Origin: Alphaproteobacteria bacterium
GTDB lineage: Bacteria; Pseudomonadota; Alphaproteobacteria; RF32; CAG-239
Assembly (NCBI GenBank): GCA_017467515.1
Contig: JAFUSU010000022.1
Location: 1 to 64,000, forward strand
Reading direction: 5' to 3'
Length of the DNA: 64,000 nucleotides
Positions 303 through 14,727 of this stretch are shown here, in pieces. How positions within the stretch are numbered: the stretch's first letter is position 1; every line of letters begins with the position of its first letter. The notes under the pieces are model-generated. The model did no database searches. It was given only the letters and a program-made list of their open reading frames with translations, and had not been told where the DNA came from. A program made the translations under genes and the position numbers.

Positions 303-1058
303 TTAATAATTATAAATTTTCCGCTTGAGGTTTTTTTTGAACTTTTTGCTGGGAATACAACGAATTAATTTTAACATAGGCTTAAACCACCAAGGCGTTT
401 GAAGTTCATAACGGCGGAAGATTGAATCCGCAAGAACAACATTACCGATGATACTCGACATAGTTGATTTCGGTTCTATGTTAAACATATCGTAGGTGAT
501 GCGGGTAATTCCTTCAGAAATGTTTTCTTCTTGAAATCCTTTCACATCTTTGCTGTTTTCAATCACTAAAATATCAAATTGTGTCGGATTAAAATATTTG
601 TTGAGTTTTTGTTGAGATTCTTTCAGCTCGTCGGCATCTAATCTTCCATCTAAACTGTACCAAATAATTAAAGTTTTTTTAGATTTTGCCAAGCGCTGAT
701 AAAGACGCTCAATTCGTCTTTGATATTTGCTTTCAATATCGGCAAAGGATTGCTCTAAAGGAATACCTATCGGAAAATCGTGAACAAAGTAACACCCTGT
801 TTTGATATCTTTACAATACTCGCAATTCATATCTGTTTCTTCATTACTCGGGCGCTCTGTTATAACCAGACTTTCTTTATTGAGAAAATGCTCAAAATGT
901 GTCAGTAACCATTGAATTTTATCACTAAACGGGTCTAACCCTACCCAATCAAGAGGATAGGAGGCATATTGGAGTTTATTACGACGCAGGAGTACACTGC
1001 AAGCACAGGTATTACCGACTGAAAAGATTAGATCATATTTTTTCTTATTTTTTGCCAT
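303..1058 (-). CDS. DUF1796 family putative papain-like cysteine peptidase
   Basis: The N-terminus carries the block typical of DUF1796 proteins: a short strand, then an invariant-looking Cys in VGNTCACS, an Arg-rich helix and the SYPLDWVG segment. This family is predicted to have a papain-like cysteine protease fold; its substrate is not known. I start it at the ATG at 1058 (251 aa) rather than at a TTG at 1076, because AAAGGAA sits 7-8 bases upstream of that ATG. The gene follows the methyltransferase by 10 bases and is probably co-transcribed with it. The C-terminus is strongly basic. Function beyond the family assignment is unknown; such proteins also occur in surface-polysaccharide loci, but nothing here points to one. 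Confidence 0.7.
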   Translation of the reverse strand: MAKNKKKYDLIFSVGNTCACSVLLRRNKLQYASYPLDWVGLDPFSDKIQWLLTHFEHFLNKESLVITERPSNEETDMNCEYCKDIKTGCYFVHDFPIGIPLEQSFADIESKYQRRIERLYQRLAKSKKTLIIWYSLDGRLDADELKESQQKLNKYFNPTQFDILVIENSKDVKGFQEENISEGITRITYDMFNIEPKSTMSSIIGNVVLADSIFRRYELQTPWWFKPMLKLIRCIPSKKFKKNLKRKIYNY

Positions 1059-1068
1059 TTGAATTCCT

Positions 1069-1863
1069 TTAATCAAACAGGTCTTTTTTGTGTTTTTTAT
1101 CTTCTATCACATTTTCAATTCGTTTACGTGATAATGCCACATACTCTGAATTCGTGTCAATACCGACAAAACGGCGATTAAGCTTGATTGCGGCCACCCC
1201 TGTGGTCCCGCTTCCCATAAAAGGATCCAAAATCAAATCGTCCTCTTGTGTGGAAGCTGTAATGATTCTTTCCAGTAAAGCCAATGGTTTTTGGGTAGGG
1301 TGTTTACCAAAAGTTTTTTCAGCCGGCGGCGTCGTAAAAATAGACCAGACTGTCCGCATTTGCAAGCCCGGCTTTTTTATCATATCTTTCGAAAAATCAC
1401 CGTTTTTCATGGCGTCATAATTGAAATAGTGTTTAGCTTTTTTTGATTTTCGTGCCCAGAGCAAATTTTCGTGGCTGGCGGTAAAATATTTGCAAGACAG
1501 GTTAGGGCTGGCATTTGGTTTAAACCACGCAATATCGTTTAAAATATGGTAATCCAGCAACAACATTGCATAACCGCAGGATAAAATGCTGTGATAAGTT
1601 CCTGATACCCATATGGTCCCGTTTGGCTTGAGTAAACGTTTGCATAAAGTCAGCCATTGTTTATGAAATTCAAAATCTCGTTCAATACCTTTGGATTTAT
1701 CCCACTGTCCTTTATTAATTTTGATGAGCTTGCCGTTGAAACAACTGGTGCCGGTGGAAAGCATATACGGAGGATCGGCAAAAATCATATCAAACGACTC
1801 TTCGGGCAATTCGGATAGAACTTTGAAACAATCGTCATTATATAAAGTATAAGGTCTGGTCAT
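1069..1863 (-). CDS. DpnA-like adenine-specific DNA methyltransferase (beta class, orphan)
   Basis: 264 aa. Motif IV (ADPPYMLS) is near the N-terminus and the AdoMet-binding motif I (DPFMGSGTTGVAA) near the C-terminus, the order of beta-class N6-adenine methyltransferases. The segments WVSGTYHSI, PNLSCKYFTASHE and FGKHPTQKP closely resemble DpnA/DpnM2 of the DpnII system, which methylates GATC, so GATC is a reasonable guess for specificity. AAGGAA precedes the ATG. No restriction endonuclease gene lies alongside, which suggests a solitary, regulatory or anti-restriction enzyme. It lacks the C-terminal extension of CcrM. Confidence 0.88.
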   Translation of the reverse strand: MTRPYTLYNDDCFKVLSELPEESFDMIFADPPYMLSTGTSCFNGKLIKINKGQWDKSKGIERDFEFHKQWLTLCKRLLKPNGTIWVSGTYHSILSCGYAMLLLDYHILNDIAWFKPNASPNLSCKYFTASHENLLWARKSKKAKHYFNYDAMKNGDFSKDMIKKPGLQMRTVWSIFTTPPAEKTFGKHPTQKPLALLERIITASTQEDDLILDPFMGSGTTGVAAIKLNRRFVGIDTNSEYVALSRKRIENVIEDKKHKKDLFD

Positions 1864-1939: not shown

Positions 1940-1966
1940 AAAAAAACCGCCCAGATGAGTGGGCGG
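1940..1966 (-). terminator. Intrinsic terminator of the putative structured RNA
   Basis: On the minus strand CCGCCC, an 8-base loop and GGGCGG (1966-1947) are followed by seven T (1946-1940). No coding sequence upstream on this strand explains it, so it probably ends a non-coding transcript. Confidence 0.8.
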
Positions 1967-2488
1967 GGATTAATTAGTTTGTTACTTGAGGCGGAAATAT
2001 TTTCAATATTTCTAGGCGGCGGTGCGCGAGGTGGGAAACCTTCGCTGTGCCCGGCTATTTTATTCACCTCTCTTTTTTTTGCGCCAATATCCGGATCTAA
2101 CGAGGTCGGCGGGGCGCGTTTTATGTTGAGTTAGTAGTTTGTTTGGGTTTATCTATCTAACTCAGGGCGGTCTCTTATTCTCATGTTCTTTGGTTTTTGT
2201 TGCCCCTGCTTTTTTATTTCAGCTCCGAGATGTCGGTAGCAATACACAGGGGCGGCGGCCATGTGTCAGTTCTTAATTCTTGTCGTTTTTACTGCCAAGA
2301 GAATGGAAGGACCATTTTTGTTTCTTGCTGCCATAGTTATGGTTTTAAGAAGTTAATATTTCCGGCTTTATTCAGAAGCTGCAAGCGGTACTGCCCATGT
2401 ATGGGGGTTAAGCTCGGCGCGGTTTCTGATGTTATCAACTCTCATAACGAAAGCCGGTTTTTATAATAGGCATAATGATTAATTGGTA
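1940..2488 (-). ncRNA. Putative large structured non-coding RNA (about 550 nt)
   Basis: This stretch has no credible ORF but has its own near-consensus promoter (2495-2523) and intrinsic terminator (1940-1966) on the same strand. It is visibly more GC-rich than the neighbouring intergenic DNA and full of complementary segments: 2450-2457 with 2362-2369 (8 bp); 2294-2300 with 2323-2328 enclosing 2302-2306/2312-2316; 2244-2248 with 2262-2266; 2247-2253 with 2202-2208 (7 bp), enclosing a hairpin at 2222-2240; 2127-2134 with 2157-2164 (8 bp); 2028-2033 with 2065-2070; 1995-2001 with 2005-2011. I find no match to tmRNA, RNase P, 6S or SRP RNA signatures. The length is in the range of the large ornate RNAs (ROOL, OLE, GOLLD), but I cannot show homology. 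Confidence 0.65.
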
Positions 2489-2494
2489 GAACTA

Positions 2495-2523
2495 TGTATA
2501 TCAAATTTTAAAAAGACTGTCAA
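2495..2523 (-). promoter_or_regulatory. Near-consensus sigma70 promoter for the structured RNA
   Basis: On the minus strand TTGACA (2523-2518), a 17-base spacer and TATACA (2500-2495) are followed by an AT-rich start region. It is the best match to the housekeeping consensus I noticed in the window and points at 1940-2488 rather than at any ORF. Confidence 0.75.
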
Positions 2524-2580: not shown

Positions 2581-4863
2581 TTACTGCTGAGAAGGAGTTT
2601 CCTCTGAGTAATTTTGCTCGTATTCCTCTTCATATTCGTCTTCATATTCCGAATCGGATTCGTTTTCATCAAAATCTTCGCTATCCATTTCTTCTTCATT
2701 CGGATCATAGCTGATTCCTAATTTGGCGAGGATATCTTCATTGACATCTTCACGCTGAGCGACTATCCAATCCGGAATAAAGGGAGAGGGCGGAATTTTT
2801 GATTTAGCCAACATTTCTTTGTCCAGATAATATCTCGGAGCGTCGGCCATAATCGGACGATCAATAAAGCCTTGCATCAAAACAACCTGTTTCAGCATCG
2901 GTAAACTCAATAATTGTGTGGTGCTGATAACGGATGTTCCCTGTAATTGGTAACTGACGTTTTTCGCAAACGGGTTGGTTCCTTTTGAAAGAGTGAACCC
3001 TTCGCTCTTAGAATAAGAAGTTGTCTGAACTGTTTTATTTCCAATCATTTTAGAGAATCGCTGAGCGGTTTGCTCATTGTTTTGAGATAAAATAACTTTA
3101 CAAGCCGTTGTGGAAATAACCGTTTCAAGGTCATCTTTACCATATTTACCGGATATTTGTCCTAAGTCTTGTCCAATCAGTAAATAAGATACTTTTTGAC
3201 CACGTCCGACAGCAGGTCCTTCAATGACGGCGCGTAATTTCGGCATTGTCGGGAACTCGTCGAGAACGAACAGGGCAGGGAACGGACCCATCTTACCATC
3301 TGATTTACTGACAAAATTCGGTGTGTTTGTAATCAGATATGATGACATCAAATCAATGAACGTTGCACTGATGATGTTTAAGGCTTTTGCATCAACTTGG
3401 TTAACGGACAAATAAACGGCTATCGGTTTCCATTGTCCGGTAATCGGGTCTTTCATTCCGCGCAAGTCCTTAAAGTGAATGTCTGAAAAGCTGGTGCGGG
3501 CAACAACCGCGGAGTTCTTGAAAATACCAATACCGCCTAAACCGGTTGATAATACGGAACCGCGCTCTTTATCCGGCATTGCGCTTAATTGGCTTAATTC
3601 CGTAATGCAACGTTGTGAATAACCATATTGACGAGCTTCTTCAATTGCCGCATCAAGCAGATCACGCATCGGATCGGCCATAGCGGCCATTTGATCACCT
3701 TCTTCCAAACGGCGTTTGATATCTTCAGCCTGCTTGATTTGAGATTCAACCATCCATTCCAAAATCATCGCTAAGCAGGATTCGTGTCCAATCCACTTAT
3801 CCGGCAATAAATTCCACGTTCCGATCGGCACATAATTATCAATGGTCAACGTATTATTGCGCAAGTTTTGAATAGCGCGTGCGGCTTGAGGATCGTGCAT
3901 CTTGATATAGTAGCTTTCCAAAACTTTTTTATCTTCTTCATCAAGTTTACCCTCGTAAACACGACCGATAAAGTAGTCATTGGCTCGGGCATTTTCGCAC
4001 TTAAATACAATAAAGTGAATTAAACCATTTAAAGCGCCTCGACCGGCTTTTGACCAGTGCGGATCTGCACCACCTTTAGGATCTTCAACCAGTGTATTAC
4101 ACATGGAATCGATATACATATCACGGTCAGGCCCCGGTTCCGGCAGAGCATTCGGTGCCAACGGATTCCAACTCGGGTAGTAAATACCTTCCTTCGGGTT
4201 ATCTTCCGCACCCCAGTTAATAACAAAGACCGGACCATCTTTGGAGCGAGCGCCCGTTGTGGTAAAGCATAATTCCGGTTTCGGGTCATTTACAATCAAA
4301 CTCATACCCGGAGAATTGAAAATGGTCGGAATAACGATTCCGGCTGTTTTACCGGTTCCCGGAGGTGCACAGCACAGGGTAGATAAGGTTTCTTTTAATT
4401 TGAGCATTCTTCCTTTATAGCGTCCGACAACCATACAAAAGCCGTCAAATAACCCCATTCTTTTAATATCTTTATAGTCGGCAATACGAGCCGAACCGTG
4501 AATGTTTGATTGAAAATGGTATGGGTTTGTGCACGCCCCGATGATTAAACCGACCGGCGTGGATATAATAGGAAGTATTGGCAACCACAGACTGAGTGAA
4601 AAATCACCGTGATATGCGGAAATTTGTTTCATCCAGTTCCAATAGCGGGAAACAAGATAACCCGGATTTTCTAAGACAATCTGCATAAATTTACTGACGT
4701 CATTTAATGTGTCTTTTGAAATACCGCTTCCTAATAAATATCCTAAAGGAATTGAAATAAAACCAAGAATAACGGTAAAAACCAGCGAAATAATGATGGT
4801 TGTGACCATCCATTTGCTGGCTTTGTTATATTCTTCCCATTCTTCACCAGATCTGTCAACCAT
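2581..4863 (-). CDS. VirD4/TraG-family type IV coupling protein
   Basis: 760 aa. Two N-terminal membrane segments (about 20-45 and 90-111) precede a cytoplasmic P-loop ATPase. Walker A is APPGTGKTAG near 166-174 and Walker B is LFVLDEF at 531-537. A VNDPKPEL segment after Walker A and GQDLGQI after Walker B are typical of VirD4/TraG. Coupling proteins recruit DNA or protein substrates to a type IV secretion channel and energise their transfer. The last 45 residues are very acidic (repeated E/D with Y), a possible substrate-docking tail. It is the last gene of a four-gene operon. No VirB-like pore genes or relaxase are nearby, so either the channel is encoded elsewhere or the role has diverged. 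Confidence 0.93.
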   Translation of the reverse strand: MVDRSGEEWEEYNKASKWMVTTIIISLVFTVILGFISIPLGYLLGSGISKDTLNDVSKFMQIVLENPGYLVSRYWNWMKQISAYHGDFSLSLWLPILPIISTPVGLIIGACTNPYHFQSNIHGSARIADYKDIKRMGLFDGFCMVVGRYKGRMLKLKETLSTLCCAPPGTGKTAGIVIPTIFNSPGMSLIVNDPKPELCFTTTGARSKDGPVFVINWGAEDNPKEGIYYPSWNPLAPNALPEPGPDRDMYIDSMCNTLVEDPKGGADPHWSKAGRGALNGLIHFIVFKCENARANDYFIGRVYEGKLDEEDKKVLESYYIKMHDPQAARAIQNLRNNTLTIDNYVPIGTWNLLPDKWIGHESCLAMILEWMVESQIKQAEDIKRRLEEGDQMAAMADPMRDLLDAAIEEARQYGYSQRCITELSQLSAMPDKERGSVLSTGLGGIGIFKNSAVVARTSFSDIHFKDLRGMKDPITGQWKPIAVYLSVNQVDAKALNIISATFIDLMSSYLITNTPNFVSKSDGKMGPFPALFVLDEFPTMPKLRAVIEGPAVGRGQKVSYLLIGQDLGQISGKYGKDDLETVISTTACKVILSQNNEQTAQRFSKMIGNKTVQTTSYSKSEGFTLSKGTNPFAKNVSYQLQGTSVISTTQLLSLPMLKQVVLMQGFIDRPIMADAPRYYLDKEMLAKSKIPPSPFIPDWIVAQREDVNEDILAKLGISYDPNEEEMDSEDFDENESDSEYEDEYEEEYEQNYSEETPSQQ

Positions 4864-11640: not shown

Positions 11641-12162
11641 TTATGCTTCCCAACTGCGAGAAAATTCTTCATCCTTAAAGAGTGCAGCTAAGCCGGTAAT
11701 CTGTTTTAAGCGTAATACTTCATCTGCTGACATTCCTATATTTTTGCAGATCCAAGTATCGCTTTTTCCCATTTCAACTAACTCGGCAACAATATTACTC
11801 ATTAAATCAACATTGTGGCTGCCTCTGGCACGGTTATGGCGAATTGTGGAAGCCATTCTTTCCCCTAATTCTTTATCAATCGTGACAATGGGGAGCATTC
11901 CTTTTTCTCGTTCGTAAATTCGTTTACTGGTTTTCATAATGGTGTAGCGGTGAAACCCATCAACGATGATGTATTCATCGCTGTCTTTATCATAATAACA
12001 AACAACCGGTTGTGTATACCCGTCTTCCCAAATGGACAGCTCAAGTAACTTTAATTCCGGAGGGGCAACCCGGTTAGGGTTATATTCGTTAGCCTTGACT
12101 TTTTCAATAGGAACTGCTTTAACGCAGTAAACGGGACTGATAAATTCTTTATTTTGATTCAT
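11641..12162 (-). CDS. ibrB: IbrB-like ParB/Srx-fold protein
   Basis: 173 aa. It has the ParB/sulfiredoxin-like nucleotide-binding core: VPIEKVKANEYNPN, SIWEDGYTQPVV, VDGFHRY (67-73) and ASTIRHNRARG, followed by a small helical domain (CKNIGMSADEVLRLKQ). These blocks match IbrB, which in E. coli acts with IbrA to activate eib genes and is found on prophages. I start at the ATG at 12162, preceded by AAGGAA, and not at the upstream in-frame start that would lie inside ibrA. It follows ibrA by 10 bases in a three-gene operon. Confidence 0.85.
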   Translation of the reverse strand: MNQNKEFISPVYCVKAVPIEKVKANEYNPNRVAPPELKLLELSIWEDGYTQPVVCYYDKDSDEYIIVDGFHRYTIMKTSKRIYEREKGMLPIVTIDKELGERMASTIRHNRARGSHNVDLMSNIVAELVEMGKSDTWICKNIGMSADEVLRLKQITGLAALFKDEEFSRSWEA

Positions 12163-12172
12163 TGTTATTTCC

Positions 12173-13474
12173 TTACAGATTTTTATATTTTTCCATGAGT
12201 TGGTGTTCTCGTTCAGTTTGTCTTTTTGTTTGAGCAAATCCCATATGTTTACACAAATGGTCATTTTTCAGAATACAAACAGCCATACGTTTCCAAGAAG
12301 GGATATCTATGGTTGATTTAATGTCATCGGTGTCATCCGGTGTTCCTAAAAAGACGACTTGATCTTTTGTTGATCTTCTTTTTCCTTTTCCTCTGTTGCG
12401 AATTTTATAGTTACAAGCTTCAAGCTCTTTGATGGCATCATCTGCGACAACGCCTCCGTGTTTCCACCAAAATCGGATCGAGGTTTTGAATTTTTCGATA
12501 TAATTTTTTCTGATTTCATCGGGCAGAGTGGCCAGTAAAAATTTAACGTATGATCTCCATGTGTGTCCCGGCGGTAGATCAAAACGCTTGTTGCCAAGAA
12601 CTTTACTGTTACCGTAAATAGCTCCGAAATTAGCTCCCTGTACGCGAGCGACAACTTTTATCCAAGTTTGGGGATCTAAAACGCGGTATAAATTCAAATG
12701 AGCTTTAGCACTTTCGTGATAAGGACTTGCCACGCGCATCTGATGAATGGACAGACCGGCTTTGTAAAAGAGGTCATATATTTTATTGTATTCAAATCCG
12801 AACTTTCCATAGGCAATCCATATATCTTTTGTTGTCCAGTCATATAAGGGGTAAGCGTGATAAAAATTATTCCAAATTTTAGGATGCCACTTGTTTTTTG
12901 ATAAGGTGTGCTTTTGATTGGTAGCGTAGGCACGATAACGATTTAATGATTCATCAGTACGGATACCTAATAAGCAAATAGTTTTTCCGGTGTGCTGACG
13001 CGAATACCATTTGCCGAATTCCATATAAAAATCTTCTTGTGCCATTTTATATTTGTAAAAATCAAATTTATGATTTTGCAGATTGATAATAAAAGGATGT
13101 TTCGGCATAGGTCTGACCCAATCGGCCTCTTTTTGGTCATCCCATGGATACCAGTACATTTGAAAATTACTGACGGCACAGCGTGATCCCTGAGGAATAC
13201 AGACCCAATAAGGATCAATGTCATCAAGATTGTCTAAAAACATTTTTTCAACATAATCGGTTGTTGCCTGATACTGTGCCTCAAAATCCTGATGAAAAAC
13301 ACCAATCTTTTTTTGAATATTATGGCGGTGTTTGTAATCCAGAACCAGATTTAACAGTAAACCGCTATCTTTGCCTCCGGAAAAAGAAACATAAATATTT
13401 TCGAAATTATCAAAAATATATTTTAATCTTTGTTGTGTGGCTTCGTATACATTAATATCTAAATATTTTTTCAA
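12173..13474 (-). CDS. ibrA: IbrA-like PAPS-reductase/ATP-pyrophosphatase family protein (DUF3440)
   Basis: 433 aa. The N-terminal PP-loop SGGKDSG lies at 32-38, inside a PAPS-reductase fold, and a DUF3440 region follows. The N-terminus (KKYLDINVYEATQQR then IYVSFSGGKDS) is very close to the E. coli regulator IbrA. PP-loop enzymes adenylate a substrate using ATP; related enzymes handle sulfur in DNA phosphorothioation, but IbrA chemistry is not established. It starts with TTG at 13474, overlapping the upstream stop as TTGA, so translation is probably coupled. There is no in-frame ATG early enough to keep the PP-loop. Confidence 0.88.
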   Translation of the reverse strand: MKKYLDINVYEATQQRLKYIFDNFENIYVSFSGGKDSGLLLNLVLDYKHRHNIQKKIGVFHQDFEAQYQATTDYVEKMFLDNLDDIDPYWVCIPQGSRCAVSNFQMYWYPWDDQKEADWVRPMPKHPFIINLQNHKFDFYKYKMAQEDFYMEFGKWYSRQHTGKTICLLGIRTDESLNRYRAYATNQKHTLSKNKWHPKIWNNFYHAYPLYDWTTKDIWIAYGKFGFEYNKIYDLFYKAGLSIHQMRVASPYHESAKAHLNLYRVLDPQTWIKVVARVQGANFGAIYGNSKVLGNKRFDLPPGHTWRSYVKFLLATLPDEIRKNYIEKFKTSIRFWWKHGGVVADDAIKELEACNYKIRNRGKGKRRSTKDQVVFLGTPDDTDDIKSTIDIPSWKRMAVCILKNDHLCKHMGFAQTKRQTEREHQLMEKYKNL

Positions 13475-14727
13475 AGTTTCAATGCCTCTGTTCGGGTTAT
13501 TTTTTGGTATATATTAGACAGTAAAAATTCTTTATGTTCAAGAGAGTCTTTAATAAATTTTTCTAAATTTGTGTGTATCCAAAAGTCATATACATTAATT
13601 TCGGACGGTAAGCCTGTGAAAAAAAACGAATTAAGACTTTGTACTTTACAGCGATAATCAAAGGTTTGCGAGTAATATATAATATTGTGGCAAAGTTGCA
13701 TATTTAAACCGAATTTTTCAACACCGTATGTGCAAAAAAGAAAATCTGTATTGCGTTCAAAAGCTTTAATTGCCTTTTTCTTATTGGTTCTTTTACTGAG
13801 TTCAACAATGGGCAGGTCATTAAGAATTTTACTCTCTCGGATAAAATCTATCTCGTGGATGAATTTGACATAAATTAAGGCTTTTTCTTGCCTTGTATGG
13901 ATTTGTGTAATGAGTTTTTTTAAGCCAATGAGCTTATTGTATGATAATGTATATATTTTTTGAAAAGTTTGGGCTATATCCATAAAAACAATGCGGTTTT
14001 TTTTATTTAAATAATGGATTTTTTCCTCTTGGTAACTTTGTTCTTCTTGAGGTGTTAAGTCAAAAAAAAGGTCAAAATGATTGATTTTAAAAGGCTTATT
14101 AATATCGTGTCCTAAAATATATGGTTTCAGCATACCAAGAAGTTTATTTTCATCTTCCGGACGTGACCAGCGCTTCTGAATCATATAATTTTTGTATTTT
14201 GCGGGCATAAAAATATCTTTAAATTGTTTTGAGTTCATCTTAAGTATTTTGCTGTTCAGAAATTCAATTTGAGTATATAAGTCAATTAATCCCAATGTTA
14301 CGGGCGGACAGCTCAAAATAAGTTTATAAGTAAAAAAACGGCTGAGATTTAGTAATCTTTGTGTTCGCTCTGATTGGGTGTTTTTGATAACCAAGCTTTC
14401 ATCAACGATGCAAAAAGTTTTATGATTGATGATAAGATTATACAGTTCCAAATATACTTGATCGGATACGGAAATTGATTCGATGGCATAGTATAAAACA
14501 CGGTGGCGAAAACTTTGACAGTTTTTCTTGATTTCGTTTTTATATCTTAACGTATTTAAGAAATTTGCAGGTGCAATCCAAAGAAGATAATCAAAATTTG
14601 ATATTTCATATTCGGCTATTTTTAAAGAAATTTCAATTCTTTCCGGTACTGAATTAATGAACAGAATTCCTGCATTTCCTTTTGAAAATTTATGATAAAG
14701 TTTGTTTATTGTATATTTTTTTTGCAT
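13471..14727 (-). CDS. SNF2-helicase-like protein with degenerate motifs
   Basis: 418 aa. The order of elements fits a SNF2/superfamily 2 helicase: a first-domain strand LLWIAPANFL (motif Ia-like), CIVDESLVIKN in place of the DExH box of SNF2 proteins, LILSCPPVT where motif III (LTGTP) is expected, then a second domain with ALIYVKF, FLFCTYGVEKFGLNMQL (motif V-like GLN) and a motif VI position lacking the paired arginines. No Walker A (GxGKT) is visible near the N-terminus (AGILFINSVPER there instead). It may therefore not hydrolyse ATP. It is the first gene of the operon with ibrA and ibrB. It shares its upstream region with the flagellar sigma54 promoter. Confidence 0.62.
   Translation of the reverse strand: MQKKYTINKLYHKFSKGNAGILFINSVPERIEISLKIAEYEISNFDYLLWIAPANFLNTLRYKNEIKKNCQSFRHRVLYYAIESISVSDQVYLELYNLIINHKTFCIVDESLVIKNTQSERTQRLLNLSRFFTYKLILSCPPVTLGLIDLYTQIEFLNSKILKMNSKQFKDIFMPAKYKNYMIQKRWSRPEDENKLLGMLKPYILGHDINKPFKINHFDLFFDLTPQEEQSYQEEKIHYLNKKNRIVFMDIAQTFQKIYTLSYNKLIGLKKLITQIHTRQEKALIYVKFIHEIDFIRESKILNDLPIVELSKRTNKKKAIKAFERNTDFLFCTYGVEKFGLNMQLCHNIIYYSQTFDYRCKVQSLNSFFFTGLPSEINVYDFWIHTNLEKFIKDSLEHKEFLLSNIYQKITRTEALKL

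Follow-up and report, generated by a model that had tools for sequence, protein, structure and literature searches.

In the window, by which we mean the whole 64,000-nt stretch of DNA analysed, the minus strand between a coupling-protein gene and a methyltransferase gene probably carries an independent gene of about 550 nt for a structured non-coding RNA (ncRNA). Judged from the sequence, we put the probability of this reading at roughly 0.75, and the candidate is best read as representing a new RNA family. The window opens contig C15 of a genome of 1.67 Mb (G000), and the locus is arranged as follows:

2581-4863, minus strand: virD4, encoding a VirD4/TraG-type coupling protein (Pfam PF02534, PF12696)
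2523-2495, minus strand: sigma-70-type promoter TTGACA-17-TATACA, read from the sequence (-35 hexamer 2523-2518, TATACA 2500-2495)
1940-2488, minus strand: proposed ncRNA of about 549 nt, put forward on its promoter-to-terminator span, minimum free energy (MFE) z of -4.1, homologues and no Rfam family
1966-1940, minus strand: intrinsic terminator CCGCCCACTCATCTGGGCGG plus T7 (stem 1966-1947), ending the ncRNA
1916-1888, minus strand: promoter-like site of the methyltransferase gene, TTGCAC-17-TAATAT (TTGCAT-17-TATCAT in the relatives), downstream of the ncRNA terminator
1069-1863, minus strand: gene for a DpnA-like N6/N4 DNA methyltransferase (Pfam PF01555) with no restriction partner beside it

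The preliminary description of this DNA had named a minus-strand promoter, some 550 nt without a credible open reading frame, an intrinsic terminator and an elevated G+C content, and each of these points is borne out. The promoter hexamers can be read directly, and both genomes with a homologue (G002 and G005) have TTGACG-17-TATATA at this place, so that the -35 element and the 17-nt spacing are kept while the letters of the spacer diverge. An automatic promoter scan missed this promoter because its rule accepts a second hexamer only if it ends in T. The promoter lies directly behind the end of virD4, a terminator-like hairpin with T-runs in both directions, and transcription is predicted to start near 2488. 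The terminator of the ncRNA is likewise kept in both relatives, as CCGCTCACTTCGGTGAGCGG, where the stem has changed and the loop is UUCG. The list of open reading frames contains none of at least 60 codons on the minus strand within 1940-2523; the only two frames there (71 and 89 aa) lie on the plus strand. G+C amounts to 43.8% in the ncRNA stretch versus 38% in the window and 27.6% in the adjoining spacer.

Folding of the region exceeds chance. The minus strand reaches -139.5 kcal/mol (z = -4.1 versus dinucleotide shuffles), and the homologous RNAs of G002 and G005 fold with z = -4.7 and -3.4, respectively. In the alignment of the three sequences, the consensus fold of the whole RNA has a z of -6.2 versus column-shuffled alignments, and the signal is found in a core, for which z is about -6 and none of 100 column shuffles folded as well. 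The 5' domain gave z = -2.3 with three sequences, which is not significant, and no signal with two, and the stretch from hairpin HP3 to the terminator was not significant in the alignment used. The following elements can be distinguished:

2362-2457, minus strand: 5' domain, closed by CCGGCUUU/AAAGCCGG (2457-2450 with 2369-2362), from individual folds
2081-2313, minus strand: conserved structured core of about 230 nt, from the consensus fold versus column-shuffled alignments
2169-2313, minus strand: long-range helix of the core, GGUC..AUUCUC (2313-2299) with GAGAAU..GACC (2182-2169)
2202-2253, minus strand: hairpin HP1, GCCCCUG/CAGGGGC (2253-2247 with 2208-2202), inner CCG/CGG
2128-2163, minus strand: hairpin HP2, GAGUUAG/CUAACUC with a conserved AUAAACC loop, present in all three RNAs with an almost invariant helix
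2081-2117, minus strand: hairpin HP3, GCGCC/GGCGC, base invariant, inner part variable
1988-2070, minus strand: helix P4, GAGGUG/CGCCUC (2070-2065 with 1993-1988), GACGGA/UCCGUC in the relatives

For each of the three RNAs, a separate MFE prediction yields HP1, HP2, HP3, P4 and the terminator. The long-range helix, whose arms are nearly invariant, is part of the consensus fold and of the individual folds of G002 and G005; its outer GGUC/GACC part also pairs in the fold of the G000 RNA. HP1 is hypervariable in sequence and kept as a helix, being GCCCCUG/CAGGGGC in G002 and GGGUCCUG/CAGGCCC with a bulged U in G005, with CCG/CGG (G000), ACCC/GGGU (G002) and CUUC/GAAG (G005) at its tip. The RNAs of G002 and G005 are 92% identical, yet their HP1 sequences differ strongly and are paired in both. 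P4 has two positions changed on both sides and belongs to the MFE fold of each of the three sequences. The 5' domain may be closed by UCCGC/GCGGA in the relatives, and consensus support for this domain is weak.

Formal covariation statistics are underpowered because only three homologues are available, two of them close. The covariation term of RNAalifold is slightly unfavourable on the automatic alignment of the three homologues, in which some helices are misplaced. As HP1, HP2 and P4 are among these, and P4 is not recovered in the alignment of its part, helices were compared by hand; the resulting table reflects the analyst's own choice of helices and is not blind, while the shuffle tests are blind. 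Taken together, the predicted secondary structure is conserved across the homologues, as is general for structured bacterial ncRNAs, and the structured RNA suggested earlier is upheld by a core fold far beyond column shuffles and by helices that persist although both of their sides have changed. Good scores are obtained for the plus strand as well, with z = -2.3 versus dinucleotide shuffles and z = -6.7 in the alignment shuffle test. Orientation is therefore taken from features of the minus strand, namely the conserved promoter, the terminator with its following T-run, the UUCG loop of the relatives and the few U-G pairs, which occur in the core helix and P4.

The degree of constraint can be judged against the neighbouring genes. 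Between G000 and G002 only 48-50% of the four-fold sites of virD4 and the methyltransferase gene are identical, which puts neutral sites close to saturation. Overall identity of the ncRNA is 59%; in the core, where a gap is scored as a difference, 52-70% of the columns in each 50-column block are identical, and invariant stretches, for example AGAATAAGAGACC, occur.

Homologues, whose collection from related genomes had been proposed in the preliminary description, were found by DNA search in two of the six other genomes of the genus, at the same position, and in none of 49 further relatives. In both G002 and G005 the ncRNA lies between virD4 and the same methyltransferase gene, so that the placement claimed for G000 is not only confirmed but recurs. 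A covariance model of the core (R1), run on 126 genomes of the family and 153 of the order, gave no credible copy beyond the three loci, and the ncRNA was not found in the other 150 order genomes searched. With only about 1.4 effective sequences the sensitivity of this model to very divergent copies is limited. The nine weak matches below E 0.1 among the 123 other family genomes are about the number expected by chance. Four weak matches were rejected because they lack the promoter-RNA-terminator arrangement and lie in or beside protein genes: L087 and L089 fall within protein genes read in the same direction, while L088 and L114 lie against or beside such genes. DNA patterns searched in viral contigs and 84,980 species genomes retrieved only the known loci or unrelated ones, the covariance model found no ncRNA match in viral contigs, and blastn against phages and plasmids returned short chance pieces and no convincing match. 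The relatives of the methyltransferase that occur in viral contigs are distant and come without such an RNA. The ncRNA is best read as clade-restricted, as far as these searches reach, and as accessory.

The surroundings of the locus differ between genomes. virD4 is present in 117 of 126 family genomes. In G001, G003 and G004 it is followed first by two other genes and then, in this order, by tRNA-His, a gene resembling D-Ala-D-Ala carboxypeptidases and one resembling ParA; the names come from the translations. The first two genes are replaced by the RNA and the methyltransferase gene in G002 and G005, where tRNA-His stands in the other orientation, and in G000 the methyltransferase gene is followed by a DUF1796 gene, then by repeats and the contig end. 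The slot is thus variable, and the RNA and the methyltransferase gene look like accessory cargo of a tRNA-His slot, as far as gene order can tell. The DUF1796 gene (303-1076, minus strand) encodes a papain-like cysteine peptidase, overlaps the end of the methyltransferase gene and is absent from this place in G002 and G005. A 41-nt direct repeat unit is found at 1-41 and 217-257, and the first 300 nt of the window also contain GGGGCGGACG, which resembles the end of tRNA-His. The slot of G004 holds an IS200-like gene and that of G001 an incomplete copy of the tRNA-His 3' end. Between G002 and G005 (L008/L009) four-fold identity is 94% for virD4 and 78% for the methyltransferase gene, which suggests different histories or recombination across the slot. 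Elsewhere in the window (11641-14727, minus strand), PAPS-reductase-like, ParB-like and helicase-like genes lie together between core genes; named from their translations, they possibly form an accessory or phage-type (IbrA/IbrB-like) cluster.

Several other readings of the locus have to be weighed. The RNA and the methyltransferase gene share a strand and co-occur in all three genomes, and it is conceivable that the former is a long leader, a cis-regulator or attenuator of the methyltransferase mRNA, with a conditional terminator. We regard this as improbable. The methyltransferase gene, which starts 76 bases after the ncRNA terminator in G000, has its own promoter-like site behind that terminator, in the same form in all three genomes, and the RNA is therefore probably not its leader. 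Between the two lie about 76-209 nt that are poorly related in sequence, and relatives of the methyltransferase in other genera are preceded by different sequence, in genomes without the RNA. Close relatives of the enzyme often come after a second, D12-like methyltransferase gene, as the sequence shows for those in G026, G010 and G001, and since close relatives of the enzyme occur elsewhere without the RNA, the latter is not part of the methyltransferase family as such. A decayed mobile-element remnant with old hairpins and no active gene, lying in the tRNA-His slot, would agree with the variability of that slot, with the IS200-like gene in one sister genome and with the 41-bp direct repeat at the window start. 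This explanation is very improbable, because promoter, terminator and core fold are kept despite near-saturated silent sites and decay would not keep them. The least probable reading, to which we give hardly any weight, is that the region encodes one or more small proteins. The three genomes share a frame of 22 codons (MAARNKNGPSILLAVKTTRIKN in G000, MRAKNKGHPILVTAKSTSNKN in the relatives) with compatible start, stop and 3-nt indel. Its substitutions, however, are spread evenly over the codon positions (6/7/7), 10 codons change the amino acid versus 2 that are silent, the stop codon has changed, no good Shine-Dalgarno sequence precedes it, and the letters conserved best in it fall on one arm of the core helix. 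The codon-like pattern that had been named as an argument against an RNA gene is thus not seen, and a coding reading is rejected.

The main rival concerns not the existence of the RNA but its mode of action. Many bacterial intergenic ncRNAs act as trans antisense regulators, and the A-rich stretches CUGAAAUAACAAG, AUAAACC and GCAARAAACAAA, which are conserved and unpaired, might be accessible segments that pair with mRNAs while the helices only stabilise the molecule. We consider this rather unlikely, as RNAs of this kind tend to be shorter than about 550 nt and conservation lies mostly in the compact fold. In the main reading, the RNA would be started by its own sigma-70-type promoter set against the virD4 terminator and ended by its own intrinsic terminator ahead of the methyltransferase promoter. 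Its predicted core of about 230 nt consists of the long-range helix around the hypervariable hairpin and of two further hairpins, the linkers and loops being A-rich and conserved, and outside the core there are a variable 5' domain and the P4 arm. The gene sits as accessory DNA of its clade in the variable slot that extends from the type IV secretion system (T4SS) operon to tRNA-His. As to mechanism, a folded scaffold is our preferred, if tentative, alternative, held at somewhat less than even odds. Once transcribed, the RNA may act in trans as such a stable scaffold, which would either bind a protein by means of its conserved, single-stranded A-rich stretches or assemble with itself. We infer this scaffold from the fact that selection kept the fold while the sequence of the helices changed. 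Further-reaching, and doubtful at present, is the idea that gut Alphaproteobacteria possess a new class of large ornate RNA, which is cargo of the tRNA-His slot and forms an RNA or RNA-protein particle with a novel function. To our knowledge, few bacterial ncRNAs longer than 500 nt have a conserved fold, and the functions of the known ones, OLE, ROOL and GOLLD, are still poorly understood.

Comparison with known RNAs agrees with the earlier statement that no known class is recognisable. Rfam 15 has no family that reaches its gathering score anywhere in the window, and below threshold there are only chance-level matches at the locus (up to E 10) and at the homologues (up to E 1), with ROOL, GOLLD and OLE absent from both sets. 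Like the ncRNA, tmRNA, RNase P RNA and 6S RNA are structured RNAs in these genomes, stable and of about 150-480 nt. Each of them scores significantly elsewhere, namely alphaproteobacterial tmRNA (RF01849) at G000:C9:44514-44986 with no match at the ncRNA locus, RNase P RNA (RF00010) at G000:C21:184647-185025 and 6S RNA (RF00013) at G000:C24:6992-7144, and the ncRNA is thus none of them. The tmRNA match of G000 spans 473 bases versus 335-347 in sister genomes, which suggests an insert of about 130 bases.

A length similar to that of ROOL- or OLE-class RNAs had also been pointed out; the sizes are indeed similar, the comparison is one of size, and no Rfam model matches. OLE (about 600 nt) shares the length and an elaborate fold and is described mostly from Gram-positive extremophiles and anaerobes and as a ribonucleoprotein, whereas no partner gene is known for the ncRNA. 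ROOL and GOLLD are both large, are encoded by phages or prophages and lie close to tRNA islands; ROOL, 659 nt in one studied case, stands alone near tRNA genes, GOLLD combines a conserved part with a less conserved 5' part near tRNA genes, and the function of both is unknown (PMC12286853). The ncRNA resembles ROOL in size class, stand-alone organization and proximity to a tRNA gene but differs in its alphaproteobacterial host, its far narrower distribution and the lack of a recognised phage. With GOLLD it shares the conserved part, the less conserved 5' part and the tRNA gene nearby; GOLLD, however, often exceeds 800 nt. tRNA-His does lie beside the slot in the relatives, and no phage genes are seen in the cassette. 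A homo-oligomeric complex made of RNA alone would be a further mark of membership in the ROOL, GOLLD or OLE class. Resemblance to ROOL and GOLLD is one of size and context only, and since the Rfam model test failed the ncRNA is not filed with either. Its narrow distribution limits its general weight; a further unrelated large RNA, beside a methyltransferase gene in an accessory slot of a poorly studied gut lineage, would nevertheless widen the set available for comparison.
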